Of a stretch of DNA of 11,175 bases, positions 1-11,175 are shown in pieces. The stretch covers positions 1 to 11,175 of the forward strand of contig JAKFWB010000386.1 of assembly GCA_021732945.1 (NCBI GenBank), written 5' to 3'. Position 1 is the stretch's first letter, and each line of letters opens with the position of its first letter. Source of the stretch: Porphyrobacter sp. (GTDB lineage Bacteria; Pseudomonadota; Alphaproteobacteria; Sphingomonadales; Sphingomonadaceae). Both the position numbers and the translations under genes were made by a program. Below the pieces are notes generated by a model. The model worked only from the letters and a program-made list of their open reading frames with translations, was not told the origin of the DNA and did no database searches.

Positions 1-856
1 AACCCGTGAGGTCGGTGGTTATCAGGCGATTGCCGCTCAGCACCGAGCGCGCCGGGCCGGTAATCCTCAGGACGACGGGTAGCGGATCGCTCTGGCTGGT
101 GACCCCGGTCGAGGCATCGACCCCGACGATCACCGTGGCGGGCGCATAGCTGTTGGGCGGGAGGTAGTCGCGGCTCGCCTCCAGCAGCAGCGGCGGAGAA
201 CCGTCGGCCGCCCTCGGTTTTGCCGCGGCGGGTTTGTCGCCCGCGAAGCTCAGCAGGCTCGGCTTCGCCTCGCCTTGCGGGCCGCCGAACGGATCGGGCG
301 CTGCGGCCTGCCCGCCGGGCGTGCGCGGATCGCCGATGGGGACAGGTGCTACCGGCGGGTTGGCGCGGACCGCCTCGAGTTCGGAGCGCAGCGCGGCATT
401 TTCGGCAGAGATCGCATCGATCGCTGCCTGGCCGTCGCTGACCATGCGTGCGTTCTCGCCCCGCAGCGTTTCGAGTTCCTGCTCGATCGAGGCCCTGGGC
501 AGCTGGCTCTCCTGCAAATCCTTGATCGCACGGCCCTGCGCATCGAGACGGTTGCCGTAGGTGGCGACGAACTCCCGGTTGGAGAGGTTGCGGTTGACGA
601 GCGCGCCGGTCTCGATGGTCTCGGCGCCTGCGCCGGTAGTTTCGTCCTCGTCGTCGCCGCCGAAGATGAACATCGATCCGGCGAGGAGCGCGAGGGTGCC
701 GATGCCGCCGAGCAGCAACTTCTGACGCTGGGCGACCGTGCGGTTGAGGTCGCGCCGCGGTTCCCCGTGGGCGCGGTTGTCATCGCCCTTGCTGGTGTCA
801 GGGCGCTTCTCGGCAGCGGTCTGCGGCGCGCTGTCGCGGGTGTCCTGGTCGGCCAT
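1..856 (-). CDS. traB: Conjugative transfer protein TraB, N-terminal part (runs off the left edge)
   Basis: TraB is the inner-membrane-anchored channel protein of F-type type IV secretion systems (VirB10-like). It spans the periplasm and meets TraK/TraV in the outer-membrane core complex. The 285 codons visible fit that plan. A charged cytoplasmic N-terminus (residues 1-45) is followed by one membrane helix (about 46-65), an acidic stretch (GGDDEDE), a predicted coiled coil (about 108-166, rich in E, L, A and R), and a Pro/Gly-rich linker (about 168-220). The start of the beta domain follows, reading RITGPARSVLSGNRLITTDL near the edge, as in TraB proteins. The ATG overlaps the traK stop (TAATG), so the two are translationally coupled. 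The frame is open to base 2. The F protein is about 475 residues, so roughly the C-terminal 40% lies outside. Identification rests on architecture plus operon position. Confidence 0.9.
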   Translation of the reverse strand, partial: MADQDTRDSAPQTAAEKRPDTSKGDDNRAHGEPRRDLNRTVAQRQKLLLGGIGTLALLAGSMFIFGGDDEDETTGAGAETIETGALVNRNLSNREFVATYGNRLDAQGRAIKDLQESQLPRASIEQELETLRGENARMVSDGQAAIDAISAENAALRSELEAVRANPPVAPVPIGDPRTPGGQAAAPDPFGGPQGEAKPSLLSFAGDKPAAAKPRAADGSPPLLLEASRDYLPPNSYAPATVIVGVDASTGVTSQSDPLPVVLRITGPARSVLSGNRLITTDLTG

Positions 857-1686
857 TATTCGAGCCCTCCTGCGGCAAAGACGAGGAACGCCTGGGTGGT
901 CTCGCCAGGTGCCAGCGTGTCGCGGCCATAGGCAAAGGCGAGCGCGCCTGCCGGTGCCTCGCGCTCCGCGCCGAGATTGATCGGCGCGGCGCCCACATTG
1001 CGCAGCGTGAACGCCTGGCCGGTCAGCTCGGCGCCGCGGTATTCGGCGACCTGCTGGACTTCGATCGTGTCGGTGCGGCGCGGCCGCGAGAGCGCTGCGC
1101 GCACCCGGAAGCCTGGCAGCACGGCATTGCTTGCCATCGCTTCGATCAGGCGGACTGTGGCATCCTCTCCGCTGAGCGCGGCCTGTTCCCATTCACCGGC
1201 CTCGGGCCTGGCGAGCGCCGGGTTGGTGACGAACAACTGGCTCGCGTCCTCGCCTTCGACGCGGCAGACGAACTTGTAGACGTAGCCGCCCGTGCTGGTG
1301 GCGAAGAAGCTGACTTTTGCGCTCGCATATTGCAGCGGCACCGAGACATAGATGTCGCCGCGGACCGGCTCGTGGGTCACCTCGAAATCATTGTAAGGAT
1401 AGCCGCTCGCCATCTTGGAGACGTTGGCGAATCCGTCCTCCACGAGCGCAATCCGGGTGAGCGCGCCGCGAGCGAGCACGCAGTCGATCGCCGCGCCGTC
1501 GGCGGCCTCGACGAACTGGTCGGCATGCGCCGGGCCTGGCGTCAGCGCGAGCGCCAGCGAGCTGCCGAGCGCGGCGAGACCGGATGGCTTAAGGCCCGGA
1601 TCGGGACGCCGGATCGTTCCGGTTGCGAACAGGGTCACGCCGGCCGTAGCGAGCAGGGCAGGAAGGGGCTGGGCGAGCAGGGTCAT
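856..1686 (-). CDS. traK: Conjugative transfer protein TraK (secretin-like, outer-membrane core)
   Basis: TraK is the VirB9/secretin-like periplasmic protein of F-type secretion systems, which forms the outer-membrane core complex with TraB and TraV. The product is 276 aa, compared with about 242 in F. The visible body (about residues 56-276) is beta-rich and ends in a typical domain (FTLRNVGAAPINL...APAGALAFAYGRDTLAPGETTQAFLV). A signal cleavage site is likely at AHA|DQ near residue 55. The N-terminus is odd because two hydrophobic stretches (about 3-22 and 36-52) are separated by RRPDPGLKPSG. This makes the leader about 55 residues if the ATG is used. A GTG at 1638 (residue 17) would give a more normal leader. 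I keep the ATG because it overlaps the traE stop (ATGA) and has AGGA-like sequence just upstream. The gene lies between traE and traB, as in F. Confidence 0.9.
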   Translation of the reverse strand: MTLLAQPLPALLATAGVTLFATGTIRRPDPGLKPSGLAALGSSLALALTPGPAHADQFVEAADGAAIDCVLARGALTRIALVEDGFANVSKMASGYPYNDFEVTHEPVRGDIYVSVPLQYASAKVSFFATSTGGYVYKFVCRVEGEDASQLFVTNPALARPEAGEWEQAALSGEDATVRLIEAMASNAVLPGFRVRAALSRPRRTDTIEVQQVAEYRGAELTGQAFTLRNVGAAPINLGAEREAPAGALAFAYGRDTLAPGETTQAFLVFAAGGLE

Positions 1687-2264
1687 TGGTCCTGGTCCTT
1701 GTTCTGGTTTTCCTGGGGGTCGGGAAGCTGGCGGAACCCGGTGAGACCAAGGCTCAGGCCCCGGCGCCTCCAGGTGAAGGCAAAGCTGCGCTGCTGGCTG
1801 GCGATCACCTGCGCTCCGACAAAGGTCTTGAGCGTGCCGGTGACGGTTGCGGTCAGTGCGCCCGGATCAACTTCCATTCGCGCAATCACGAAGGCCTGGC
1901 TGATGTCCGACCCGCGCTGCTCGTCGACGATCTTGACGAGCGCGGCCTTGAGGTGGCCGTGCGCGGCGGGATCGGCGAGCTTGAGGACTTGCTCCATCCA
2001 GTAGTCGAGGCTCTCGGGCGCACGGTTGAGCAGCATCAGCGCGGTGTCGCGGGTAACAAGCTCGAGGTAGTGCGCCTCGAGAGCGCCGCTGGTAAGCGTC
2101 AGCCGTTCGGCGGTGACGGGCACGAGGATCACGCTCTCCTCGCGCGTCGCGGCGACGCCGATTGCGACGAGGCTGGTGAGGCCGAGCATCGCGGCGAGCG
2201 CGGCGAAGCGGTTGCGCTGTGCGAGATGGCGCTGGGCTTCCTCGTAGGCGAATTCGTGTTTCAT
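1683..2264 (-). CDS. traE: Conjugative transfer protein TraE (VirB5/VirB8-like inner-membrane protein)
   Basis: TraE is a small inner-membrane protein of F-type conjugation systems, structurally related to VirB8 and needed for pilus assembly. The product is 193 aa (F TraE is 188). Residues 1-19 are a charged cytoplasmic tail (MKHEFAYEEAQRHLAQRNRF), residues about 20-39 form one membrane helix, and the rest is a periplasmic domain with the usual VPV...Y...R pattern and an LTGFRQLPD tail. The start is well supported by GGGAGG centred about 8 nt upstream, directly after the traL stop. The stop overlaps the traK start by 4 nt. Confidence 0.92.
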   Translation of the reverse strand: MKHEFAYEEAQRHLAQRNRFAALAAMLGLTSLVAIGVAATREESVILVPVTAERLTLTSGALEAHYLELVTRDTALMLLNRAPESLDYWMEQVLKLADPAAHGHLKAALVKIVDEQRGSDISQAFVIARMEVDPGALTATVTGTLKTFVGAQVIASQQRSFAFTWRRRGLSLGLTGFRQLPDPQENQNKDQDQ

Positions 2265-2276
2265 GGTGGTCCTCCC

Positions 2277-2564
2277 TCAGCCTGCAAGCAGGCGGCAGTG
2301 GGAGGGCGGCGTGGCCTTCAGCCCGAGGAAGCTCCCCGGCAGGTACCAATAGGCAGCATGGACCAGTTTCGACCCGGCACCCGACGCCTTCGCCTTTCGA
2401 AGAGCGAACCAGGTGAGCCCGGACAGGGCGGTGCCGATGATGATGTGCTGCGCAAGGATGCCCCAGGCGAACGGGACGAGCAGTCCCGCAAACTCGTCGA
2501 TGGTCCAGAAGCCTATCAGCTCCGGATCGTCGAGCCGTCTTGGAACGAGATACCTGTCGGCCAT
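2277..2564 (-). CDS. traL: Conjugative transfer protein TraL (small inner-membrane assembly protein)
   Basis: TraL is the VirB3-like small membrane protein of F-type pilus assembly. The product is 95 aa (F TraL is 91). It starts with the characteristic RYLVPRRLDDPELIGFWTID and has one or two membrane segments at about residues 24-60 (AGLLVPFAWGIL and HIIIGTALSGLTWFAL). A basic loop follows (RKAKASGAGSK) and then the conserved aromatic end (HAAYWYLPG). GGGAGGG lies about 5 nt before the ATG. The gene sits 25 nt after traA and 12 nt before traE, the same order as in F. Confidence 0.93.
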   Translation of the reverse strand: MADRYLVPRRLDDPELIGFWTIDEFAGLLVPFAWGILAQHIIIGTALSGLTWFALRKAKASGAGSKLVHAAYWYLPGSFLGLKATPPSHCRLLAG

Positions 2565-2589: not shown

Positions 2590-2916
2590 TCAGATGACCG
2601 CGGTCACGACCGAAGTGACGATCGGCACACCGGTACCGACGCCGATCCCGACACCCACCGGGACCGCGACCTGCCCGAGCGCGAAGCGGCCCGAGGCAAG
2701 GGCAATGAGGCCGCCGGCGAGGCTGAGGACGGTGATGATCTTGCCGCCCGAACCTTCGAGGAAGTCGGTGAACTTGGCGAGCGCCGGATCGAAGGTGGTG
2801 TCGGCACCTGCATAGGCCGCGCCTGCACAGGCCAGAGCGATAGCGGCGGGCAGGATGTAATCCCGGGCGCGAGTGGTGCTTTTGTGCCGGGAGGGAAGGG
2901 CGATTGTCTTGGTCAT
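2590..2916 (-). CDS. traA: Probable conjugative pilin precursor (TraA-like)
   Basis: This is the likely pilus subunit, made as a prepilin, inserted in the inner membrane and polymerised outside the cell. The product is 108 aa. A basic N-terminus (KSTTRARD) precedes a hydrophobic leader ending AAYA|GADTTF at residue 36, so mature pilin would be about 72 aa, close to F pilin (70). The mature part shows a short amphipathic start, a membrane helix (about 59-75, IITVLSLAGGLIALASG), a short basic turn (GR) and a second Gly/Val-rich helix to the end, the two-helix plan of F/VirB2 pilins. Sequence identity to F TraA is not obvious, so the call depends on topology and on being first in the operon. The start at 2916 is chosen because the upstream frame lacks coding character; GGAG lies 10 nt upstream. 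That start codon is involved in a striking inverted repeat (see separate entry). Confidence 0.82.
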   Translation of the reverse strand: MTKTIALPSRHKSTTRARDYILPAAIALACAGAAYAGADTTFDPALAKFTDFLEGSGGKIITVLSLAGGLIALASGRFALGQVAVPVGVGIGVGTGVPIVTSVVTAVI

Positions 2917-2973
2917 CGAGGAACTCCGTGTCGAACATACAGCGATGTGTTCGCTGTATGTTCTTTCCTCGAT
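2915..2973 (-). promoter_or_regulatory. Composite inverted repeat covering the traA leader, ribosome-binding site and start codon
   Basis: Two nested perfect inverted repeats are visible. The inner arms are GAACATACAGCGA (2933-2945) and TCGCTGTATGTTC (2951-2963), 13 bp with a 5-nt loop. The outer arms are ATCGAGGAA (2915-2923) and TTCCTCGAT (2965-2973), 9 bp. In traA mRNA the outer stem would pair the leader with the bases that include AU of the AUG, and the GGAG sequence would lie in a 9-nt bulge (2924-2932). As DNA, the inner repeat could also be a protein operator. Whether it works as RNA, DNA or both cannot be told from the sequence, and RNA action requires transcription to start upstream of 2973. 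Confidence 0.7.
2949..2963 (+). promoter_or_regulatory. Candidate LexA (SOS) box in front of traA
   Basis: The sequence GTTCGCTGTATGTTC matches the alphaproteobacterial LexA recognition pattern GTTC-N7-GTTC exactly. It lies 33-47 nt upstream of the traA start codon and overlaps the right arm of the inner inverted repeat. In Caulobacter, Rhodobacter and rhizobia, LexA bound at such boxes represses SOS genes. Occupancy here is inference. Confidence 0.6.
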
Positions 2974-2978
2974 TGAGC

Positions 2979-3001
2979 GGCAGGGTGTAGGAAATCGGAA
3001 A
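2979..3001 (-). repeat. 23-bp mirrored promoter-region motif, traA side
   Basis: Read on the minus strand, this stretch contains TTTCCTACACCCT (2994 to 2982) and matches 20 of 23 positions of the plus-strand stretch 3204-3226 in front of the divergent regulator gene. The two copies point outward toward the two divergent genes. They may be part of both promoters (TACACC could serve as a -10-like element) or operators for a shared regulator. Confidence 0.6.
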
Positions 3002-3013
3002 CGCGCCGAAGCG

Positions 3014-3042
3014 GATAGATCGCCAAGAAAAATCGGCAGCAA
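3014..3042 (-). promoter_or_regulatory. Weak candidate promoter for the tra operon
   Basis: On the minus strand, TTGCTG (3042-3037) and TCTATC (3019-3014) are separated by 17 nt. The match to sigma-70-type hexamers is only partial. Transcription from here would include the whole traA hairpin in the leader. The shared 23-bp motif just downstream is an alternative promoter location. Confidence 0.25.
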
Positions 3043-3052
3043 CACTAGCGAT

Positions 3053-3157
3053 TGACGCAATCTGCGCTCGCGAAGCCGTGGCATGCGCTCCAATTGCCGG
3101 AATATGCGCATGACGTGCCGGGAATTGCGTAGAGGGTGCCGGTTTTTGCGCGAATCA
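3053..3157. repeat. Array of five 21-bp iteron-like direct repeats
   Basis: Five units start at 3053, 3074, 3095, 3116 and 3137, exactly 21 bp apart (about two helical turns). The approximate consensus is TGCCGGAATTTGCGC plus six variable bases. G2, C4, G5 and TGCG at positions 11-14 are present in all five units, and the last three begin TGCCGG. A sixth unit is not visible on either side. The array is nearly central between the two mirrored 23-bp motifs and the divergent start codons. Such phased repeats are usually binding sites for a regulator, partition or replication protein. The repeats would also encode a heptad (C/S-R-x-L/M-R-x-x) in the plus frame, discussed under findings. Confidence 0.65.
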
Positions 3158-3188
3158 CGGGCAGGCAAGGTAAATCAAAGCACTCCAT

Positions 3189-3203
3189 GTTCCCTTTCTG
3201 TTC
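3189..3203 (+). promoter_or_regulatory. Candidate LexA (SOS) box in front of the regulator gene
   Basis: The sequence GTTCCCTTTCTGTTC is a second perfect GTTC-N7-GTTC match, 45-59 nt upstream of the 3248 start codon and 1 nt before the plus-strand copy of the 23-bp motif. Two perfect matches within about 250 bp are far more than expected by chance for eight fixed bases. Confidence 0.55.
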
Positions 3204-3226
3204 TTTTCGTTTTCCTACACCCTTCC
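3204..3226 (+). repeat. 23-bp mirrored promoter-region motif, regulator side
   Basis: This is the partner of the minus-strand copy at 2979-3001. It contains TTTCCTACACCCT (3211-3223), identical in both copies, and 20 of 23 positions match overall. It ends 21 nt before the 3248 ATG, which places it where a core promoter or operator is expected. Confidence 0.6.
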
Positions 3227-3247: not shown

Positions 3248-3733
3248 ATGACAACCAGGGAGATAAGATGCGCAATGCCAGACCCCGCCTGCCCCGCAGA
3301 AATACCACTTGATGACGGCCTGGATCGGCTGCTCCTGTCCGCTGTGACCGCAAGCGGCAGGTCGCGCCAGGACATTGGCCAAGAAGCGCGCATCCATAAG
3401 GATGCGCTGCGACTGATCCTCGAAGGTAAGCGCGCCGCGACGCTTGACGAGGCCATCCGCATTCTATCGGCCAGCGGCGCCAAGCCGCATGTGGCTCTGG
3501 CGCTTCAGCTGCTTGGGGAAACCGGCAAGGCTGCAGAATGGATGTACACCGATCTCGGATCTTTCCTCGAGATATTCCTGCAAGAGCTCCCCGAAGCACT
3601 CGAAGCAATTTTGGGCTGCCAGCTGCACGAGGTCAGGCCTCGCTGGGCCAAGGGGGCGGCGCACAGGGTGGCGAGCCTTCTGGCCGAGCATATCGACGAT
3701 CTCGAGCGAAGGGACACGCTCTATGCGAGATGA
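3248..3733 (+). CDS. Helix-turn-helix transcriptional regulator, probable control gene of the transfer operon
   Basis: The product is 161 aa from the ATG at 3248, or 152 aa from the ATG at 3275. The segment SRQDIGQEARIHKDALRLIL, followed by EGKRAATLDEAIRILSASG, has the shape of a Cro/cI-type helix-turn-helix. The C-terminal half (FLEIFLQELPEALE..., then RPRWAKGAAHRVASLLAEHI) looks helical and may serve for dimerisation; I do not recognise it. The 3248 start has GGTGAG only 3 nt upstream, whereas 3275 has AGGGAG 11 nt upstream, so the start is uncertain. The frame is open back to 3056, but that part is the repeat array and is unlikely to be coding. The gene diverges from the tra operon, overlaps the alpA-like gene, and lies behind a LexA-type box, so I infer a repressor or activator of transfer genes. 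Confidence 0.7.
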   Translation: MTTREIRCAMPDPACPAEIPLDDGLDRLLLSAVTASGRSRQDIGQEARIHKDALRLILEGKRAATLDEAIRILSASGAKPHVALALQLLGETGKAAEWMYTDLGSFLEIFLQELPEALEAILGCQLHEVRPRWAKGAAHRVASLLAEHIDDLERRDTLYAR

Positions 3734-3995
3734 GCCCAATTCAGTGCCTAGTGAAGGTCGCACAATCGCAAGTAAAGCGCATGACCAGCCGATTCCGGGA
3801 GGATTTGCTCTGCCGGAACGTCTCTTGCGCCTGCCAGAGGTTATCGAGCGTGTCGGTCTTAAACGCACCGCAATTTACCAGCGAGCAAAAGAGGGGCGCT
3901 TTCCAAAGCCTCGATCACTGGGAACCAGGTGTACGGTGTGGGTCGAATCCGAAGTCGACGAATGGATTCAAGCCGTCCGAACCATAGATCTGTAG
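3723..3995 (+). CDS. AlpA-family DNA-binding regulator
   Basis: The product is a small 90-aa protein. Residues about 29-90 match the AlpA/excisionase-like winged helix-turn-helix family: ERLLRLPEVIERVGLKRTAI, then Y-x-R-x-K-E-G-R-F-P-K-P, then W-V-E-S-E-V-D-E-W-I. This is the family signature in which the first helix-turn-helix is followed by a wing (GRFPKP) and a W...E..EW ending. AlpA proteins activate integrase/excision genes of prophage-like elements or act as regulators of mobile elements. The ATG lies inside the end of the upstream regulator gene (11-nt overlap), so the two are a transcription unit. Its stop is only 5 nt before the IS-end fragment, so whatever once followed has been lost or displaced. 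Confidence 0.85.
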   Translation: MRDEPNSVPSEGRTIASKAHDQPIPGGFALPERLLRLPEVIERVGLKRTAIYQRAKEGRFPKPRSLGTRCTVWVESEVDEWIQAVRTIDL

Positions 3996-4000
3996 CCGCT

Positions 4001-4099
4001 GATCATGCTGGCAAACTCAGCCGGTGAAACCAGCCCACCGGATCTGGGCAAGGCGGAAAACTCCAGACCCTAGTGGTCCGAGGTTGGGTAGCAGTGCAC
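4001..4099 (+). mobile_element. IS3-family right-end fragment, copy A
   Basis: This 99-bp stretch matches 5518-5616 at 91 of 99 positions in the same orientation. It corresponds to the last 30 or so codons of an IS3-family transposase plus the right tip (…GGGTAGCAGTGCAC). Its reading frame has acquired an early TAG (CCC TAG in place of CCC GAG). It is a solo fragment with no transposase body beside it. Its left boundary falls 5 nt after the alpA-like stop codon. Confidence 0.8.
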
Positions 4100-4149
4100 A
4101 ACCACCGCCCTGCTCTAAGCCCAGCCGGGGGAAAGCGGGGGGCATGTCT

Positions 4150-4773
4150 TTAAACGCCATAGGCCTTTAGAAACCGGTCTACGGCATCACTCACGTTCGC
4201 GCACAGTTTTTCCCGGTCGGGCTCTTCGGTTGAAAAGCGCGCCATGCACATGTCGAAGCCGCACAGTAGTCCAAAAAGATGGCCTGCCGCGAGGCGGCAG
4301 TCATGGCAGCGGATTTTTCCGTTTGCGACTGACGCCTCCAACAGCGCGGTCAATTCGCGCTGCATCCGCCGCGGTCCGGTATTCAGGAATAATTCGCCGA
4401 CTTCTGGCCGCAATTCCGCTTCGGCACCGATACGGCGCCCAAAACTAATTATGTGGGGCTGGGTAAGGAAGTGGATCACCGCTTGTCCAAAAGTCATCAG
4501 TGTGTCCCTGAGGTCGCCACCGGCTTCTTCAGGTGAGACAAAATCCGCTCCCATCATGACGCATTCGCGTTGTACCATGGCTGTGAACAGGGCCTCCTTG
4601 GTCTTAAACCTGTTGTACACCGTGACTTTTGAAACAGCGCTGCGGCTGGCGATGGTTTCGATTGAGGCACCAGCAAAGCCATGCATGAAAAATTCGTCGC
4701 GCGCCGCGTCCAAAATCGCCTCACGCTTGGCAAGGTCGATGGGGCGGTGCCTTGGCCATTTTCCTGCATTCAC
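4150..4773 (-). CDS. TetR/AcrR-family transcriptional regulator
   Basis: The product is 207 aa from the GTG at 4773. A TetR N-terminal DNA-binding domain is clear at about residues 16-62: EAILDAARDEFFMHGFAGAS, then IETIASRSAVSKVTVYNRFK, then TKEALF. The C-terminal ligand domain (REC..MGADFVSPEEAGGDLRDT and FLNTGPRRMQRELTALLE) resembles the AefR-like class. A longer reading begins at a TTG (4809), but that codon sits next to the palindrome 4813-4824 and has no ribosome-binding sequence, while GTG 4773 has AAGG about 9 nt upstream. A -10-like GATAAT (4832-4827) lies just upstream of the palindrome. The gene lies between two IS-end copies and is lower in GC than tra or ppdK, so it was probably brought in by transfer. 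Its regulated target is not evident beside it. Confidence 0.88.
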   Translation of the reverse strand: MNAGKWPRHRPIDLAKREAILDAARDEFFMHGFAGASIETIASRSAVSKVTVYNRFKTKEALFTAMVQRECVMMGADFVSPEEAGGDLRDTLMTFGQAVIHFLTQPHIISFGRRIGAEAELRPEVGELFLNTGPRRMQRELTALLEASVANGKIRCHDCRLAAGHLFGLLCGFDMCMARFSTEEPDREKLCANVSDAVDRFLKAYGV

Positions 4774-4812
4774 ATCTTGCTGCCTTGCATTATGAGCGCA
4801 GGCGTTCAATTT

Positions 4813-4824
4813 GACGCATGCGTC
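4813..4824. promoter_or_regulatory. Perfect 12-bp palindrome, candidate operator of the TetR gene
   Basis: GACGCATGCGTC is its own reverse complement and lies 40 nt upstream of the GTG start. It is immediately downstream of a minus-strand GATAAT that could be the -10 element, so it would cover the transcription start. TetR-family proteins commonly repress their own gene through such palindromes. Assignment is inference. Confidence 0.45.
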
Positions 4825-5220
4825 TATTATCTAATATCGACAAGTAGGGCGTAAGGCCACCCAGCAGGTGGCTAATTTTGTCAACCTGATCCGGCGCGGC
4901 GCCTCTGCCGTACAAAATATCGATACGGTCGATTTGTCGGTGATGGATCCGGCATCGCGCACCACCGATGTTGTCTTTCCCATACCATCAAAGGCGCCCG
5001 TACGGGTGCGCGGGGTGAAGGGTGTCGAATGGGCAGCAAACCATTTGTAATCCGGCACTATCATCCACACGCCTAAGGGGGACCTCGAGGGGTCAGCGTC
5101 ATTGGTGTTGACGATAGTACCTTGATTGTCCTGCCCCATGAAGGACACAGTTACGTTCGTCGGCTTCGTTGGTAGCAGTCCGCAAATCCGCACAACCCAG
5201 CCAGACGCATCGATCATCAT
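4825..5220. other. Unassigned stretch between the TetR gene and the IS3 remnant
   Basis: No gene is recognised with confidence. The minus strand has a 129-codon open frame (5220-4831) with no family resemblance that I can see and a start right at the IS junction. The plus strand has 60 codons from a GTG at 4868 that end at TAA 5048. These include LSVMDPASRT, and then VVFPIPSKAPVRVR, which vaguely recalls a YVTN/NHL-type beta-propeller blade. A second blade-like segment (VSVIGVDDSTLIVLPHEG) appears from 5092 in another frame. This could be a decayed beta-propeller gene read divergently from tetR, but the evidence is weak. Confidence 0.3.
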
Positions 5221-5608
5221 CGTACCCGAAGGCGATCAGGGTGGACAATGGCAGCGAGTTCATCTCTCGGGACATGGACCTATGGGCTTACCAACGAGGG
5301 GTGATCCTTGACTTCTCCCGTCCTGGTAAGCCCACAGATAATCCTGCCCTGAGCCTGTCGAAGGGGCATTCATCAAAGCATTCAACAGCAAGCTGCGCAG
5401 CGAATGCCTGAACGCGCACTCGTTCTTATCGCTGGAAGATGCTTGCGAAACGCTGGAGGCGTGGCGCAAACATTACAACGAAGAGCGACCGCACAGCGCG
5501 ATCGGGAATATCCCCCCGATCATGCTGGCAAACTCAGCCGGTGCAACCAGCCCATCGGACATGAGCAAGGCGGAATACTCCAGACCCGAGTGGACCGAGG
5601 TTGGGTAG
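5221..5608 (+). pseudogene. IS3-family transposase (OrfB) remnant, truncated and frameshifted
   Basis: The integrase core of an IS3-family (IS407-like) transposase is recognisable in two frames. Bases 5221-5342 encode YPKAIRVDNGSEFISRD and on to RPGKPTDN, which includes the second catalytic Asp (VDNGSEF). Bases 5366-5608 encode AFIKAFNSKLRSECLN and on through WRKHYNEERPHSAIG to the TAG stop. The two parts are separated by a 23-nt insertion that breaks the frame. The catalytic Glu expected in FIEAFN, 35 residues after the Asp, is Lys here (AAA for GAA). The N-terminal half, including the first Asp, is absent. The product cannot be active. Confidence 0.88.
5343..5365 (+). repeat. REP-like element inserted in the transposase gene
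   Basis: Twenty-three nucleotides containing CCCTGAGCCTGTCGAAGGG (5347-5365) interrupt the transposase frame exactly between the codons for Asn (AAT) and Ala (GCA) of the conserved TDN-AFIEAFN block. The ends CCCT and AGGG are complementary. From memory this matches a repetitive extragenic motif that is common in sphingomonad genomes; no other copy is seen in this window. Confidence 0.65.
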
Positions 5609-5616
5609 CAGTGCAC

Positions 5617-5776
5617 TGACGACGGACGACCGTCAATGATGCCGAAGCTCAGAGACGCCCATTCCGCCTCAGGTCACTTGCGCCTTTGTGCAATGCGTTG
5701 CACTATGTGGCGGACCTTCTTGCGATTCGAAGGCTAACGGGCAAATCTTGTCACGTTCAGGGAAACCAGCTTCATT
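5617..5776 (+). promoter_or_regulatory. Upstream region of ppdK with a 16-bp inverted repeat
   Basis: The region holds GTGCAA-TGCG-TTGCAC (5688-5703), a perfect 6-bp inverted repeat with a 4-nt centre. TTGCGC (5679-5684) lies 17 nt before CACTAT (5702-5707), a weak promoter-like pair that overlaps the repeat. A second small inverted repeat, GACGG-ACGA-CCGTC (5621-5634), follows the IS end. AGGGA (5759-5763) is the only ribosome-binding candidate, 13 nt before the ATG. Confidence 0.35.
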
Positions 5777-8443
5777 ATGAACAATCAAGTCTACGCCTTC
5801 GGCGGCGGCGCCAACAGCCAGGATCCGCGCAGCCGCGACAAGACGATTGTCGGCGGCAAGGGCGCAAACCTGGCGGAAATGGCCGGAATCGGCCTGCCAG
5901 TTCCCCCGGGCTTTACCATCACCACCGAACAATGCGTGTTTTATCTGGCGGAAGGGAATGACTTTTCCGACAGTCTGAAGGCCGAAGTGGCCGTAGCGCT
6001 GGCCCATATCGAGGCTGCGGTTGGCAAAAGCTTTGGCAATCCGGCCGATCCCTTGCTGGTTTCGGTCCGTTCGGGCGCACGGGTGTCGATGCCCGGGATG
6101 ATGGATACCGTGCTCAATCTAGGGCTCAATCACGCCACCGTTGCGGGGCTGGCGCAAACTTCGGGCGATCCGCGCTTTGCCTGGGACTCCTATCGCCGCT
6201 TCATCCAGATGTATTCCGATGTGGTGCTGGGTGTGGACCACCACCTGTTTGAAGGCGCACTGGAAATCGTCAAGGAGAACAACGGCTTTTACTCCGATGT
6301 TGAGATGGAGGTGCAGCATTGGCAGGCGCTGGTCAAGGAATACGAAGAGATTGTCGAGGCTGAGCTGGGCCGCCCGTTCCCTCAGGATGTCCACGAACAG
6401 TTGTGGGGAGCGATTCGAGCGGTGTTTGACAGCTGGGATGCCGACCGGGCCAAGGTCTATCGCCGGCTAAATAACATCCCGGGCGACTGGGGCACCGCGG
6501 TCAACGTCCAGGCAATGGTCTTCGGCAACATGGGCGATACCAGCGCCACAGGTGTGGCTTTTACCCGCGATCCAGCCACTGGTGAGCGGGCGTTCTATGG
6601 CGAATGGCTGGTCAATGCCCAGGGCGAAGACGTGGTCGCCGGGATCCGTACCCCGCAATACCTGACCAAGGCCGCGCGCGAGCGGGCCAAGGCCAAGCCG
6701 CTATCGATGGAAGAGGCAATGCCGGCAGCTTACGGCAAACTGGCTGCGGTTTTCGAGCTGCTTGAAAAACACTACCGCGACATGCAGGACATCGAATTCA
6801 CGGTTGAACGCGGGCAGCTGTGGATGCTCCAGACCCGCAGCGGCAAGCGCACCGCCAAGGCCGCGCTGAAGATGGCGGTCGACATGGTCCACGAAGGGCT
6901 GATCGACGAAAAGACCGCGATCCTGCGGGTCGATCCGATGGCGCTTGATCAGCTGCTGCACCCAACGCTCGATCCCCAGGCCCCGCGTGACGTCTTGACG
7001 CACGGCCTGCCGGCATCGCCCGGGGCGGCATCGGGCGCGATCGTGCTCGATTCCGACAGCGCTGAAAAGCGTTCGGCGATGGGCGAGGCGGTAATCCTGG
7101 TGCGGGTGGAAACCAGTCCGGAAGATATTCACGGCATGCACGCCGCCAAGGGCATTCTGACCGCGCGCGGGGGCATGACCAGCCACGCCGCGGTGGTGGC
7201 GCGTGGCATGGGGCGGCCCTGCGTTTCTGGCGCCTCGGTCGTCTCGATCGACCTCGCCAGCCGGTCACTGCGGATCGGCAACCGCGAGTTGAAGGAAGGC
7301 GATGTCATCACCCTGGACGGTGCCAGCGGCGAGGTTATGGCCGGGCTGGTAAAGACGATCGAGCCCGAACTGGTCGGCGATTTCGGCGTCCTGATGGAAT
7401 GGGCCGACCGGCACCGCCGGATGAAGGTTCGCACCAATGCCGAAACCCCGGCCGATTGCCATACCGCGCGTCAGTTTGGCGCCGAAGGGGTCGGCCTGTG
7501 CCGGACCGAGCATATGTTCTTTGACGCCAAGCGGATCGCCTCGGTACGCCAGATGATCTTAGCTGAAGACGATGCCCAGCGACGCGCCGCCTTGGCCAAG
7601 CTGTTGCCCGAACAGCGCGCCGATTTTCACGCGATTTTTGAGGTCATGGCGGGCCTTCCCGTGACGATCCGCCTGCTCGATCCGCCGCTCCACGAGTTTC
7701 TGCCGCACGAAGAAGCCGAGTTCGAGGATCTGGCCGAGATGATCGGAGTAGGGGCGGCAACCCTGCGCCGCCGGGCCAACGAACTGCACGAATTCAACCC
7801 GATGCTGGGGCACCGCGGCTGCCGCTTGGGGATCACCTTCCCGGAAATCTACGAGATGCAGGCCCGCGCGATCTTCGAAGCAGCCTGCGATGTCGAGGCG
7901 CGCGATGGCCGCGCCGTGGTTCCCGAGGTGATGATCCCGCTGGTCGCGACCCGCAAGGAACTGGAAATTCTCAAGGCCCTGGTCGACCGGACCGCTGCGG
8001 CGGTGTTCGCCGAAAAGGGCCGGACGCTGGTCTATCAGGTCGGCACCATGATTGAACTGCCGCGCGCCGCGCTGATGGCCGGCGAGATTTCCGAAGTTGG
8101 TGAATTCTTCTCGTTCGGGACCAACGATCTGACCCAGACTACGCTGGGCGTCAGCCGCGACGATGCCGCGCGGTTCCTTGGCGCTTATGTCGAAAAGGGA
8201 ATCTTCCCGCGCGATCCGTTCGTCAGCCTGGATATCGAAGGGGTCGGCCAGCTGGTCCGGCTGGCGGCCGAACGCGGGCGGTCGACGCGGCCCGACATCA
8301 AGCTGGGGATCTGCGGCGAGCATGGCGGCGATCCGGACAGCATTGCCTTCTGTGAGGAGGTCCGGCTGGACTATGTCAGCGCATCGCCCTTCCGGGTACC
8401 GATCGCGAGGCTGGCCGCAGCCCAGGCAATTTTGCAGAAATGA
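5777..8443 (+). CDS. ppdK: Pyruvate, phosphate dikinase
   Basis: PpdK interconverts pyruvate + ATP + phosphate and phosphoenolpyruvate + AMP + diphosphate in the cytosol (EC 2.7.9.1), feeding gluconeogenesis or, in reverse, glycolysis. The product is complete at 888 aa, normal for the family. The N-terminal ATP-grasp part (about 1-350) has GGKGANLAEMAGIGLPVPPG and GARVSMPGMMDTVLNLGLN. The swivelling phosphohistidine domain carries GGMTSHAAVVARGMGRPCVS with the catalytic His at residue 470. The C-terminal PEP/pyruvate barrel has CRTEHMFF, LPHEEAEFEDL, LGHRGCRLGITFPEIYEMQ, FFSFGTNDLTQTTLG and GICGEHGG with the catalytic Cys at residue 846. All key residues are intact. In many alphaproteobacteria ppdK follows glycyl-tRNA synthetase genes; here an IS remnant is directly upstream, so an older neighbourhood has probably been broken. 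Confidence 0.98.
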   Translation: MNNQVYAFGGGANSQDPRSRDKTIVGGKGANLAEMAGIGLPVPPGFTITTEQCVFYLAEGNDFSDSLKAEVAVALAHIEAAVGKSFGNPADPLLVSVRSGARVSMPGMMDTVLNLGLNHATVAGLAQTSGDPRFAWDSYRRFIQMYSDVVLGVDHHLFEGALEIVKENNGFYSDVEMEVQHWQALVKEYEEIVEAELGRPFPQDVHEQLWGAIRAVFDSWDADRAKVYRRLNNIPGDWGTAVNVQAMVFGNMGDTSATGVAFTRDPATGERAFYGEWLVNAQGEDVVAGIRTPQYLTKAARERAKAKPLSMEEAMPAAYGKLAAVFELLEKHYRDMQDIEFTVERGQLWMLQTRSGKRTAKAALKMAVDMVHEGLIDEKTAILRVDPMALDQLLHPTLDPQAPRDVLTHGLPASPGAASGAIVLDSDSAEKRSAMGEAVILVRVETSPEDIHGMHAAKGILTARGGMTSHAAVVARGMGRPCVSGASVVSIDLASRSLRIGNRELKEGDVITLDGASGEVMAGLVKTIEPELVGDFGVLMEWADRHRRMKVRTNAETPADCHTARQFGAEGVGLCRTEHMFFDAKRIASVRQMILAEDDAQRRAALAKLLPEQRADFHAIFEVMAGLPVTIRLLDPPLHEFLPHEEAEFEDLAEMIGVGAATLRRRANELHEFNPMLGHRGCRLGITFPEIYEMQARAIFEAACDVEARDGRAVVPEVMIPLVATRKELEILKALVDRTAAAVFAEKGRTLVYQVGTMIELPRAALMAGEISEVGEFFSFGTNDLTQTTLGVSRDDAARFLGAYVEKGIFPRDPFVSLDIEGVGQLVRLAAERGRSTRPDIKLGICGEHGGDPDSIAFCEEVRLDYVSASPFRVPIARLAAAQAILQK

Positions 8444-8818
8444 AGGACAGGCTCCTTAAGTCGGTGAATATTCTTACACTGTCCATCAAAAGTTTCTCGG
8501 TTACAAAATCACCATCAGCCTCTTGCTCGATCAGTTCGATCAGACCTTTTTTGCCTAAAGACATCGTCATAGTCTAAGGTCGAAATCGCGTCCGGACCTA
8601 GCGAGAACTCCATAGAAGCGTTGGAGGCGATCCTTGGTGTTAGGAAGGCCGCCCAGACCGAGCGCTTAGCACTGATGCCAATCGACCAGCTAGGTAATGA
8701 CCTCAGCGCGGTAGCATGGGACGATATGGCTGTGCCGATCATGACAAATTTTGAGACTGATGCTGCATATTTGCGGGCCTACGTGCGCGATGATCGAACG
8801 GTTGTAGGCGGCCAGGGG
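8444..8818. other. 375-bp stretch without a confident gene
   Basis: No complete gene is seen. A minus-strand frame from ATG 8570 begins MTMSLGKKGLIELIEQEADG and runs antisense into the ppdK end. Its first 25 residues faintly recall N-termini of IS256-type transposases, but it does not continue. A plus-strand frame (8573-8857) reads protein-like (EALEAILGVRKAAQTERLA, then MPIDQLGNDLSAVAWDDM) but lacks a good start and overlaps the MFS gene end. This may be debris of former genes. AAGGA-CAGGC-TCCTT (8445-8459) just after the ppdK stop is too weak, and lacks the T-run, to be called a terminator. Confidence 0.3.
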
Positions 8819-10237
8819 TCACTCAACCATTGTGGTCCTGCTCCGATCTTTTCGTAGCAGGGTTGCGCTAGCCACCGCCAGAGCAATCAAGGCCGCAGCT
8901 ACGATTGGCGCGTCACTCTGCGCGCCAAATTTGCGAAACAGCAATGCGGCCAGAATGGCCCCTAACGTTTGACCAATCAGCCTTGACAACGACAGCATTG
9001 CCGAAGCCGCTCCAGCGCGGGCGTGTGGAGCAATAGCGATCATACTATGGTTGTTGGGAACCTGGAAAATGCCGAAGCCGATGCCGCAAATCGCTGCCGC
9101 TGCGACGAGCTGGAAAGTCGAAACGCCCGGTTGCAACAATGACAGCCAAATTGCGCCACCGGTTAGGACGATCAACCCCGAAGCGCACAGCCAGGCTGAC
9201 GCATAGCGATTGACCAGACGCCCGGAAACGAACGCTGCAATCACGATGCCGAGCGGCAGTGGCACCATGAAAAGGCCGATAGTCTCAGGTTTGAAGTGAA
9301 ACCGTTGTTGCAGAATGAATGGGAATGACAATGTGATCAGCATCATGACAGCATAGGCTGTTGCAGACATAGCATAAGCTGTGCGCAGCGAGTCCAGCTT
9401 CAGCAAATCGAGCGGTACCATCGAGTCCTGGTTGGCTGTCGTGCGTTTACCGAGGAACCATATGGCCGGGATCGCGATGCTGATTGAAAGCAATGTCCAC
9501 CGAGAAACGGAATCTTGAGCCAGATCATTGAGGAAGAGGAATAAGGCCGCAAAGCCCGCACAGCACAACAAGGCCGAACGGTAATCGAATGCCTTTTTTT
9601 GCGACCCGGTCGAAGGGATTGCCCAGAATCCGAGTGCAAGCGCGAGCAAGCCGAACGGAAGCCCCACTGCAAAAATGGCGTGCCATCCCGCAATCGAAAG
9701 GACGAGCGCACCGACCGCCGGTCCGGCGGCCGAAGCAATCGAAACGGCGATGGTATTGTATCCTATGCCGCGCGGGACCAATGCAGGAGGGTAGATTGTC
9801 CGAACCAATGCCCCGCTGACCACCATTACTGCCGCGGCACCGATACCTTGCACAAAGCGCGACGACGCCAGAACTGCCAAACTGTGTGCGTTGATACTGC
9901 CAAAGGCCGCAAGCATGAAAATCAAGAGGCCGCCCAGATAGACTTTCTTGTAGCCAAGGATTTCGGCGGCCTTCGCCATCGGCAAAAGCGCCATCACGAT
10001 GGCGATCTGATAGGCGTTGATTGCCCATACCGATTTTGCCGCAGTTATGGCCAAACCTTTCGAGATAAAAGGCAGAGCTACGTTAGCAATTGATACGTCC
10101 ATAATGGTAAGAAATATGGCACTCCAGATCGAGAGTGCCGCCCAGAACCGACGAGGAACTGGAAGCCCGGTTGTAGGTTGGGATCCGTCCGCAATAGTTG
10201 ACGTCCCGACTTGGGGCGCTCCATCGATCGAGCTCAT
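8819..10237 (-). CDS. MFS transporter, DHA2 (14-helix drug:H+ antiporter) family
   Basis: This is a proton-driven efflux pump of the inner membrane, related to QacA/SmvA/EmrB-type exporters. The product is 472 aa from the ATG at 10237; about 14 hydrophobic segments can be counted. Family motifs are visible. TIMDVSIANVALPFI in the first helix is the DHA2 motif D1. LPMAKAAEILGYKKVYLGG is motif A, with the usual G-x-x-x-D-R replaced by A-E-I-L-G. SAAGPAVGALVL is motif C, the antiporter signature. A conserved central loop (SQKKAFDYRSALL) joins the two halves. The frame is open to a TTG at 10315, which would add 26 hydrophilic residues, but no ribosome-binding sequence precedes it. At the ATG, translation may be coupled to a short leader reading frame (separate entry). 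The substrate cannot be told; the upstream alcohol dehydrogenase gene in the same orientation suggests a detoxification or aromatic-compound context. GC is visibly lower than in ppdK. Confidence 0.9.
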   Translation of the reverse strand: MSSIDGAPQVGTSTIADGSQPTTGLPVPRRFWAALSIWSAIFLTIMDVSIANVALPFISKGLAITAAKSVWAINAYQIAIVMALLPMAKAAEILGYKKVYLGGLLIFMLAAFGSINAHSLAVLASSRFVQGIGAAAVMVVSGALVRTIYPPALVPRGIGYNTIAVSIASAAGPAVGALVLSIAGWHAIFAVGLPFGLLALALGFWAIPSTGSQKKAFDYRSALLCCAGFAALFLFLNDLAQDSVSRWTLLSISIAIPAIWFLGKRTTANQDSMVPLDLLKLDSLRTAYAMSATAYAVMMLITLSFPFILQQRFHFKPETIGLFMVPLPLGIVIAAFVSGRLVNRYASAWLCASGLIVLTGGAIWLSLLQPGVSTFQLVAAAAICGIGFGIFQVPNNHSMIAIAPHARAGAASAMLSLSRLIGQTLGAILAALLFRKFGAQSDAPIVAAALIALAVASATLLRKDRSRTTMVE

Positions 10238-10287
10238 GACGCCGCTGCTTGGGGTTTTTGGCCCATCCTGTTGCACTTCCCAAACAT
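10234..10287 (-). CDS. Possible 17-codon leader peptide coupled to the MFS gene
   Basis: ATG at 10287 has AAGGA (10300-10296) 8 nt upstream, the best ribosome-binding match in this area. The frame encodes MFGKCNRMGQKPQAAAS and its TGA overlaps the MFS ATG as ATGA, the typical geometry of translational coupling. It is in a different frame from the transporter. A short frame of this kind can arise by chance. Confidence 0.35.
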   Translation of the reverse strand: MFGKCNRMGQKPQAAAS

Positions 10288-10315
10288 TATGACGGTCCTT
10301 AGCGTTATCCGCCAA

Positions 10316-10544
10316 GTGCGAGGCACGCGGTTTGCAGGTCTCTATTCGACTTCAGAATAATAAACCCAACCTTGGTCATCGACGTGCGGCTTGCCGCATA
10401 GAGCGCTAAGAGCGAACGGCAGGCGATGCTCCAGTCCGTTCGCTCCCATTTCGTGGCCCTGCTGGTTGATCGGCCCCTAATCGGTCTAGCCCTGCGCCGC
10501 ACTCTGTTGCCGCGATCGACCGCAGAGTGGGCGCAAAGGCCGCA
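10316..10544. other. Intergenic region between alcohol dehydrogenase and MFS genes, with two inverted repeats
   Basis: No gene is seen in these 229 bp. Two inverted repeats are present: TGCGGC-TT-GCCGCA (10385-10398) and GAGCGAACGG ... CCGTTCGCTC (10410-10419 and 10436-10445, 16-nt spacer, perfect 10-bp arms). The second could end the upstream dehydrogenase transcript, but no T-run follows on the minus strand, so it may be an operator instead. A TATTAT (10363-10358, minus strand) could be a -10 for the MFS gene; no good -35 is seen. Confidence 0.4.
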
Positions 10545-11175
10545 TTACATCTTGAGAATGGCCTTGATCGCATTGCCGGAAACTTCCGTTTCCTCGACGG
10601 CTTGATTGATCTGGTCGAAATCGTAGAACGTGCAGAGCCGTTCGAACGGAAACAGACCGGCCTCGCGCATCGCAATCAGTTGCGGGATGAAGACTTGTGG
10701 TGTGCTCGAACCTTCGACCACCCCTCGCAATTTGCGGCCGAAAAGCATGTCGTTCATGTCGAGCGAGAATTCAGTTCCCAACTTCGCCCCGCCGACTACG
10801 GCCGTTTCCCCCATTGTATGGGTACTGTCTACCGCGCTGCGCAGAACCTGCGGAATGGCGGTGGTATCAATCGCATAGTCCGCGCCGCCCCCCGTCATGG
10901 CAATGATCGTTTCCTGAGCATTGTTGGTGTTGGCATCAATAATGTCGGTTGCACCAAGTTCACGGGCCAACTGCAGACGCGTGGGATTGCGGCCGACAGC
11001 TATAATCTTGACGCAACCGGAAGCCTTTGCAGCCATCACCGCGCTGAGGCCAACCGAGCCGACGCCGAAGATTGCAATCGACGAGCCGGGGGCTGGCTGC
11101 AGCGCATTGAGGACGGTGCCTGCGCCTGTCTGAATTCCGCAGCCTAATGGGCCGAGAAGCTCAATCGGTGCGTTG
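10545..11175 (-). CDS. Zinc-dependent alcohol dehydrogenase, aryl/benzyl-alcohol type, C-terminal part (runs off the right edge)
   Basis: This is a medium-chain dehydrogenase/reductase that oxidises alcohols with NAD(P)+. The 210 codons visible contain the third ligand of the catalytic zinc in LLGPLGCGIQTGAGTVLN (the Cys of GCG), the Rossmann nucleotide site GVGSVG followed by LSAVMAAKASGC and IIAVGRNPTRLQLARELGAT, then GGGADYAIDTT and VVGGAKLGTEFSLDM. The C-terminal block NDMLFGRKLRGVVEGSS...QVFIPQLI...FPFERL..FYDFDQINQAVE closely follows the benzyl-alcohol dehydrogenase (XylB-like) and related aryl/terpene-alcohol enzymes. The first zinc-binding half lies outside. It is upstream of, and in the same direction as, the MFS gene with a 230-bp gap. 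The exact substrate is not determined. Confidence 0.93.
   Translation of the reverse strand, partial: NAPIELLGPLGCGIQTGAGTVLNALQPAPGSSIAIFGVGSVGLSAVMAAKASGCVKIIAVGRNPTRLQLARELGATDIIDANTNNAQETIIAMTGGGADYAIDTTAIPQVLRSAVDSTHTMGETAVVGGAKLGTEFSLDMNDMLFGRKLRGVVEGSSTPQVFIPQLIAMREAGLFPFERLCTFYDFDQINQAVEETEVSGNAIKAILKM

Follow-up and report, generated by a model that had tools for sequence, protein, structure and literature searches.

A conjugative element of the ICE type appears to be under the direct control of host LexA, acting through boxes that are predicted LexA operators; we put the probability of this reading at about 85%. Transfer of the element is probably switched on directly by host DNA damage. 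The window we analyzed (the whole stretch of 11,175 nucleotides from Porphyrobacter sp.) holds two GTTC-N7-GTTC boxes between the pilin gene traA and a divergent pair of regulator genes (Table 1). The earlier note on this DNA had placed both boxes correctly; each is an exact match on the + strand.

Table 1. Features in and around the control region of the window
Feature	Position	Strand	Basis or remark
traK	856..1686	-	Pfam PF06586, PF23536
traE	1683..2264	-	Pfam PF05309
traL	2277..2564	-	Pfam PF07178
traA, pilin (TrbC/VirB2-like, TraA family)	2590..2916	-	PF04956 (E 1.3e-4) and NF041281 (E 3.3e-6), both below cut-off; position before traL-E-K
Perfect inverted repeat, 13-bp arms 2933-2945 / 2951-2963	2933..2963	.	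traA-side box is the right arm
LexA-type box, traA side, GTTCGCTGTATGTTC	2949-2963	+	exact GTTC-N7-GTTC; 32 bases to traA start codon at 2916
Second conserved motif, TGTAGGAAA on + strand, equal to TTTCCTACA on traA strand	2986..2994	-	sequence comparison of relatives
LexA-type box, regulator side, GTTCCCTTTCTGTTC	3189-3203	+	exact GTTC-N7-GTTC; 44 or 71 bases to candidate start codons 3248 / 3275
Second conserved motif, TTTCCTACA	3211..3219	+	7 bases from regulator-side box
Helix-turn-helix (HTH) regulator gene	3248..3733	+	start 3248 or 3275; weak profile similarity to HTH chains of antidotes and C-proteins
AlpA-family regulator	3744..3995	+	start inferred, GTG; Pfam PF05930, E 4e-19 for 3726-3995

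In an undamaged cell, host LexA bound to both boxes would keep expression low from traA, with which the tra operon begins, as well as from the HTH-AlpA operon. In relatives, LexA would also sit before the primase-helicase-ParB operon, the S24-peptidase regulator gene and, in some lineages, the integrase gene. When DNA is damaged, RecA would trigger LexA self-cleavage, and the LexA-boxed promoters would rise together. This joint derepression would permit replication, pilus building, and excision via AlpA and, where it is boxed, the integrase. An ICE organized as a LexA regulon would thus have its regulator, replication and transfer genes derepressed together by damage. We infer the steps of LexA binding, repression and induction by damage, the part of AlpA, and which protein binds the second motif, TTTCCTACA.

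The number of boxes in the window exceeds expectation. Three GTTC-N7-GTTC matches occur in it, against 0.30 expected from 200 dinucleotide shuffles, none of which (0/200) reached three. Rescaled, the shuffles give ~0.009 matches per 330 bp, in close agreement with the ~0.01 per 330-bp region calculated in the earlier note. The third match (10145-10159, - strand) lies within an MFS transporter gene and is probably due to chance. Across the whole source assembly (G000; 3.1 Mb in 594 contigs, 74% complete), the bare pattern is found at 77 places versus 90 for a reversed control, and many of the 77 fall within genes. Because there is no genome-wide excess, the evidence is that of position and conservation, not of bulk count. 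No Rfam match and no tRNA were found in the window, and the HTH protein had no match in Pfam or NCBIfam.

Conservation of the boxes upstream of traA in related elements had been proposed as a check on the pattern, and the pair came through it well. The HTH protein of the window was detected in 67 of 397 family genomes, counting the source genome itself (91 rows). With three weak fragment rows left out, 88 loci were examined: the window, a second element on another contig (C165) of the same assembly, and 86 others. A pair of boxes 190-270 bp apart was found by the family search in 70 of these loci, 66 with a traA-type box and four (L059, L061, L073, L103) with another left-hand box. Among the 18 loci without a pair, L116 has traA and no box, and L117, L118 and L121 have traA and the regulator-side box only. 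Six distant relatives (L135-L138, L140, L142) have a single traA-side GTTC-N7-GTTC in the other orientation and with other spacers; the remaining loci are truncated, remnant or lack traA.

A second set, which overlaps the first in part and consists of close relatives only, was taken from the best 80 of 198 relatives in a scan of named genomes. After four truncated loci were dropped, every locus with sufficient upstream sequence (76/76) showed the pair. In 31 dereplicated regions, the seven-base spacing accounts for 62 sites, two per region in 31/31, against 0-6 sites for each of the other spacings from 0 to 20. The DNA between the two boxes is largely unconserved, and the boxes are more conserved than the bases that flank them. 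The spacer of the regulator-side box is variable and AT-rich across relatives. The second element of the source assembly (L031, G000:C165, 4300-5758) carries a diverged copy of the control region, with both boxes, 222 bp apart.

One might attribute the pair to chance, or to shared DNA ancestry without selection, given that the pattern has only eight fixed bases and no genome-wide excess and that the elements are mutually related. However, two copies are kept in every dereplicated region amid mostly unconserved DNA, and the same box recurs at further promoters of the same elements. We regard this explanation as barely conceivable. Chance as the origin of the box pair was ruled out by the preponderance of the seven-base spacing over all others.

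Sphingomonad plasmids such as pSWIT01 and pISP1 share the F-type traA-L-E-K-B order and a divergent gene past a gap of ~250-450 bp. The divergent neighbors in the plasmids are annotated as hypothetical, unlike the HTH-AlpA genes of the element. Out of 86 matching records, the traA regions of six plasmids were inspected, and GTTC-N7-GTTC was absent from 6/6; a copy in L053, at 5095, lies outside the traA region. A tblastn search with the window HTH protein against 72,556 plasmid records returned no match. Shared plasmid ancestry was rejected on these two results, and viral contigs likewise yielded no relative.

The direct repeat GTTC-N7-GTTC is, in the accessible parts of the literature, the published LexA motif of Alphaproteobacteria (PMC3323433), among them C. 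crescentus (PMC12907096), and is shared by their SOS regulon; here, the sites are on an ICE, of which those parts make no mention. In relatives of our source genome the motif lies upstream of lexA in 10/10 genomes and of recA in 9/9. The lexA set consists of the ten genomes with a match over the family cut-off, E. sanguineus among them, and the recA set of the nine genomes having recA. The occurrence of the same motif before both genes marks GTTC-N7-GTTC as the host LexA site, as the note had recognized from the pattern.

The source assembly itself, which is incomplete, yielded only a lexA fragment and no recA match. Genes of this assembly that start close to a box include radA, nrdA, a uvrD/pcrA-like helicase gene, uvrA, gyrA, a dprA-like gene and mmcB. 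These belong to 20 box-adjacent proteins that were annotated, selected for boxes of SOS-like or intergenic appearance. Roughly half of the 20 either have no known SOS role or gave no match (the rpsB region, DNA methyltransferases, a glyoxalase and others), and two, a primase-like and an S24 protein, are of the ICE type. A small host-box model, built on 14 distinct boxes that were partly hand-chosen, ranked the regulator-side boxes 5 and 17 among the 77 places, the traA-side box of the window 20 and its L031 copy 29.

The nature of the element is seen best in Erythrobacter sanguineus DSM 11032. Over its full length, the window matches part of a 203-kb contig from this strain (G397:C13) at 98.2% identity. 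The contig unites integrase, relaxase, coupling protein and mating-pair genes and carries the window's tra operon at 98% identity. Gene order on the contig runs from tRNA-Met through a tyrosine integrase, a primase (Toprim/DUF7146), a ParB-like protein, a TrwB-type coupling protein and a TrwC-type relaxase to helicase and restriction-type genes, the S24-peptidase regulator with a divergent small gene, TraG, the tra operon, traA and HTH-AlpA. Integrase and AlpA are ~56 kb apart. Judged by the gene content of this one contig, the element is conjugative and of the ICE type, and the conjugative gene set supports the initial description of the boxes as flanking the control region of a conjugation operon. 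The tRNA-Met gene adjoins the integrase; no copy of its 3' end was found in 11 kb around and to the right of HTH-AlpA in E. sanguineus.

Eight elements were read from integrase to HTH-AlpA, that of E. sanguineus and those of seven other genomes. Every element with a primase operon and an S24 gene (7/7) has boxes ahead of both. One genome, G290, has the box pair but neither the primase nor the S24 genes, nor their boxes. Among 15 integrases paired by position with an HTH gene, seven show a box in the 170 bases preceding the match and eight show none; the E. sanguineus integrase has no box upstream. The description of the boxes as belonging to traA and HTH-AlpA was supported, with both conserved at these promoters in most relatives, but too narrow, as boxes are also found at the primase operon, the S24 regulator and some integrases.

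The presence of the S24 protein raises an alternative, namely that the boxes are operators of this element-encoded regulator and that damage acts via S24 cleavage, as with SetR of SXT. The S24-peptidase protein is encoded in 7/8 elements, where 48-69 bp separate a box from the called gene downstream of it. It retains an Ala-Gly, the GDSM serine and the VVKR lysine, presumably the residues expected for self-cleavage. However, GTTC-N7-GTTC also stands before host lexA and recA, and G290 retains both boxes without an S24 gene. The similarity of one S24 protein to one LexA was not significant (E 0.6), and the S24 promoters carry, as judged by eye, TAGGAA/TTCCTA half-sites in both orientations, which are likelier S24 operators. 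It is therefore improbable that the S24 protein acts through these boxes, and direct control by host LexA is preferred. The note had contrasted such direct control with the SXT route, in which a phage-type repressor is cleaved. The host LexA motif on the boxes favors the first half of that statement; the S24 regulator with its own box softens the contrast with SXT, and a second, SXT-like layer of control is possible.

The boxes do not stand alone. At the traA, HTH and primase promoters, the boxes have TTTCCTACA or its complement next to them, and the motif occurs there in either orientation. The eight elements (520 kb) contain 47 sites with the seven-base spacing, of which 27 have TTTCCTA no more than 60 bp away; every other spacing gives 0-4 such sites. 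These counts come from related elements and are not independent. The motif is most likely the operator of an element-encoded co-regulator, with the HTH, AlpA and S24 proteins as candidates.

The traA-side box differs from its partner in having a spacer that is nearly invariant across relatives (GCTGTNT, i.e. GCTGT[A/C/G]T). A near-fixed spacer is unneeded for LexA alone and indicates a constraint besides LexA, which suggests that this box carries an overlapping function. The inverted repeat to which the box belongs in the window, a feature absent from the note, would let the traA leader RNA fold into a hairpin, and the inner CAGC of the box is paired in 33/33 predicted folds of nonredundant traA leaders. 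These three features could mean that LexA acts at the regulator-side box alone and that the traA-side copy is kept as the operator of a second protein or as a leader hairpin. To contrast, traA-side copies with differing last spacer bases (AT, GT, CT, TC) keep all eight GTTC bases, albeit in copies chosen by pattern search, and in the distant relatives mentioned above the traA-side GTTC-N7-GTTC points the opposite way and encloses different spacers. The RNA stem also lacks covariation support. We consider this explanation unlikely, with a probability that can overlap with that of direct LexA control. An RNA stem backed by covariation was itself rejected, as none of the five predicted pairs of the traA leader stem had changed on both sides.

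SOS-triggered transfer is best known via the cleavage of element-encoded repressors. In SXT/R391, as portrayed in the available portion of one account, the regulators lie near one end, an activator acts on several promoters, transfer is thought to be released by SOS with cleavage of the CI-related SetR, and LexA is tied only to rumAB (PMC4344509). The present element resembles SXT/R391 in being an ICE with regulators near one end and with transfer that would be tied to SOS. It is unlike SXT/R391 in having host-type LexA boxes on tra, regulator, primase and some integrase promoters, yet most of the elements read also encode an S24 regulator. The accessible text of two papers (PMC9578287, PMC4344509) covers SetR control of SXT/R391 as well as the control of integrons and colicins by LexA. 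SOS-controlled integron integrases and colicin plasmids, like our element, have LexA sites on mobile-element promoters, but there the targets are single genes or bacteriocins, whereas here they would be a regulator-replication-conjugation programme (PMC9578287). The part available of a paper on Sphingopyxis granuli mentions putative ICEs and, in that part, makes no mention of LexA-type control (PMC4741004). Among the matches listed from the open-licence literature, outside which most subscription journals fall, no report of an ICE carrying LexA boxes at its tra and replication promoters came up. Titles and abstract openings of these matches gave no description of Erythrobacteraceae or AlpA ICEs with such control.

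If our reading is true, DNA-damaging stress, such as UV in surface waters, antibiotics or pollutants, would mobilize this ICE family directly. The genes past AlpA differ between elements, making this a possible cargo spot. In two copies examined, the cargo looks like arsenic- and copper-handling genes: arsenic-type genes (an SBF transporter, a low-molecular-weight phosphatase and a glyoxalase) lie downstream of AlpA in L169, and a multicopper oxidase gene in L170. In the window, a 104-bp direct repeat (3996-4099 / 5513-5616, 90% identical) flanks a TetR gene just past AlpA. Apparent insertion-sequence remnants, identified by eye, lie between the repeats beside the TetR gene, with similar matches in E. 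sanguineus. Elsewhere in the family, L205 (G251, 14393-18710) carries McrBC-like restriction, AAA ATPase and cytosine methylase genes within the ICE, and the cytosine methylase gene has its own GTTCTCTAAATGTTC box 52 bp upstream.

Some loci appear to be short derivatives of the element. In 11 of the 76 close relatives, a lytic transglycosylase gene takes the place of traA (L171, G323:C4, 8001-9800, the same locus as L251; L249, L256, L267, L268, L272, L284, L287, L290, L291 and L301). The junction in L171 between the SNase-transglycosylase end of the full element and its HTH end falls within a CTGTAGGAAA common to both. All 11 have, by eye, a box, a short gap, TGTAGGAAA, and then sequence like that of the traA-HTH intergenic region, and all retain both boxes. 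In three such loci, a distance of 2-3 kb separates the integrase and HTH genes, leaving no room for transfer genes; in the others only 2 kb was viewed.

It is tempting to speculate that a Sphingomonadales-wide ICE family hands its life-cycle switch (regulators, replication, pilus and, in some lineages, integrase) to host LexA, with its own co-regulator at TTTCCTACA. The derivatives, joined at TTTCCTACA and keeping the integrase, SNase, lytic transglycosylase, both boxes and HTH-AlpA, may then be satellites that fire on the same SOS signal. This wider proposal is a tentative one, and we hold it to be possible but doubtful.

A further locus, L168 (G033:C1, 2363-10200), is 97.4% identical to window positions 3338-11175. 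Within 19 kb it has no match to the DNA before window position 3338, which includes the HTH start, the boxes and the tra genes, and an integrase gene adjoins. From this arrangement, L168 is a probable scar of a deleted element.
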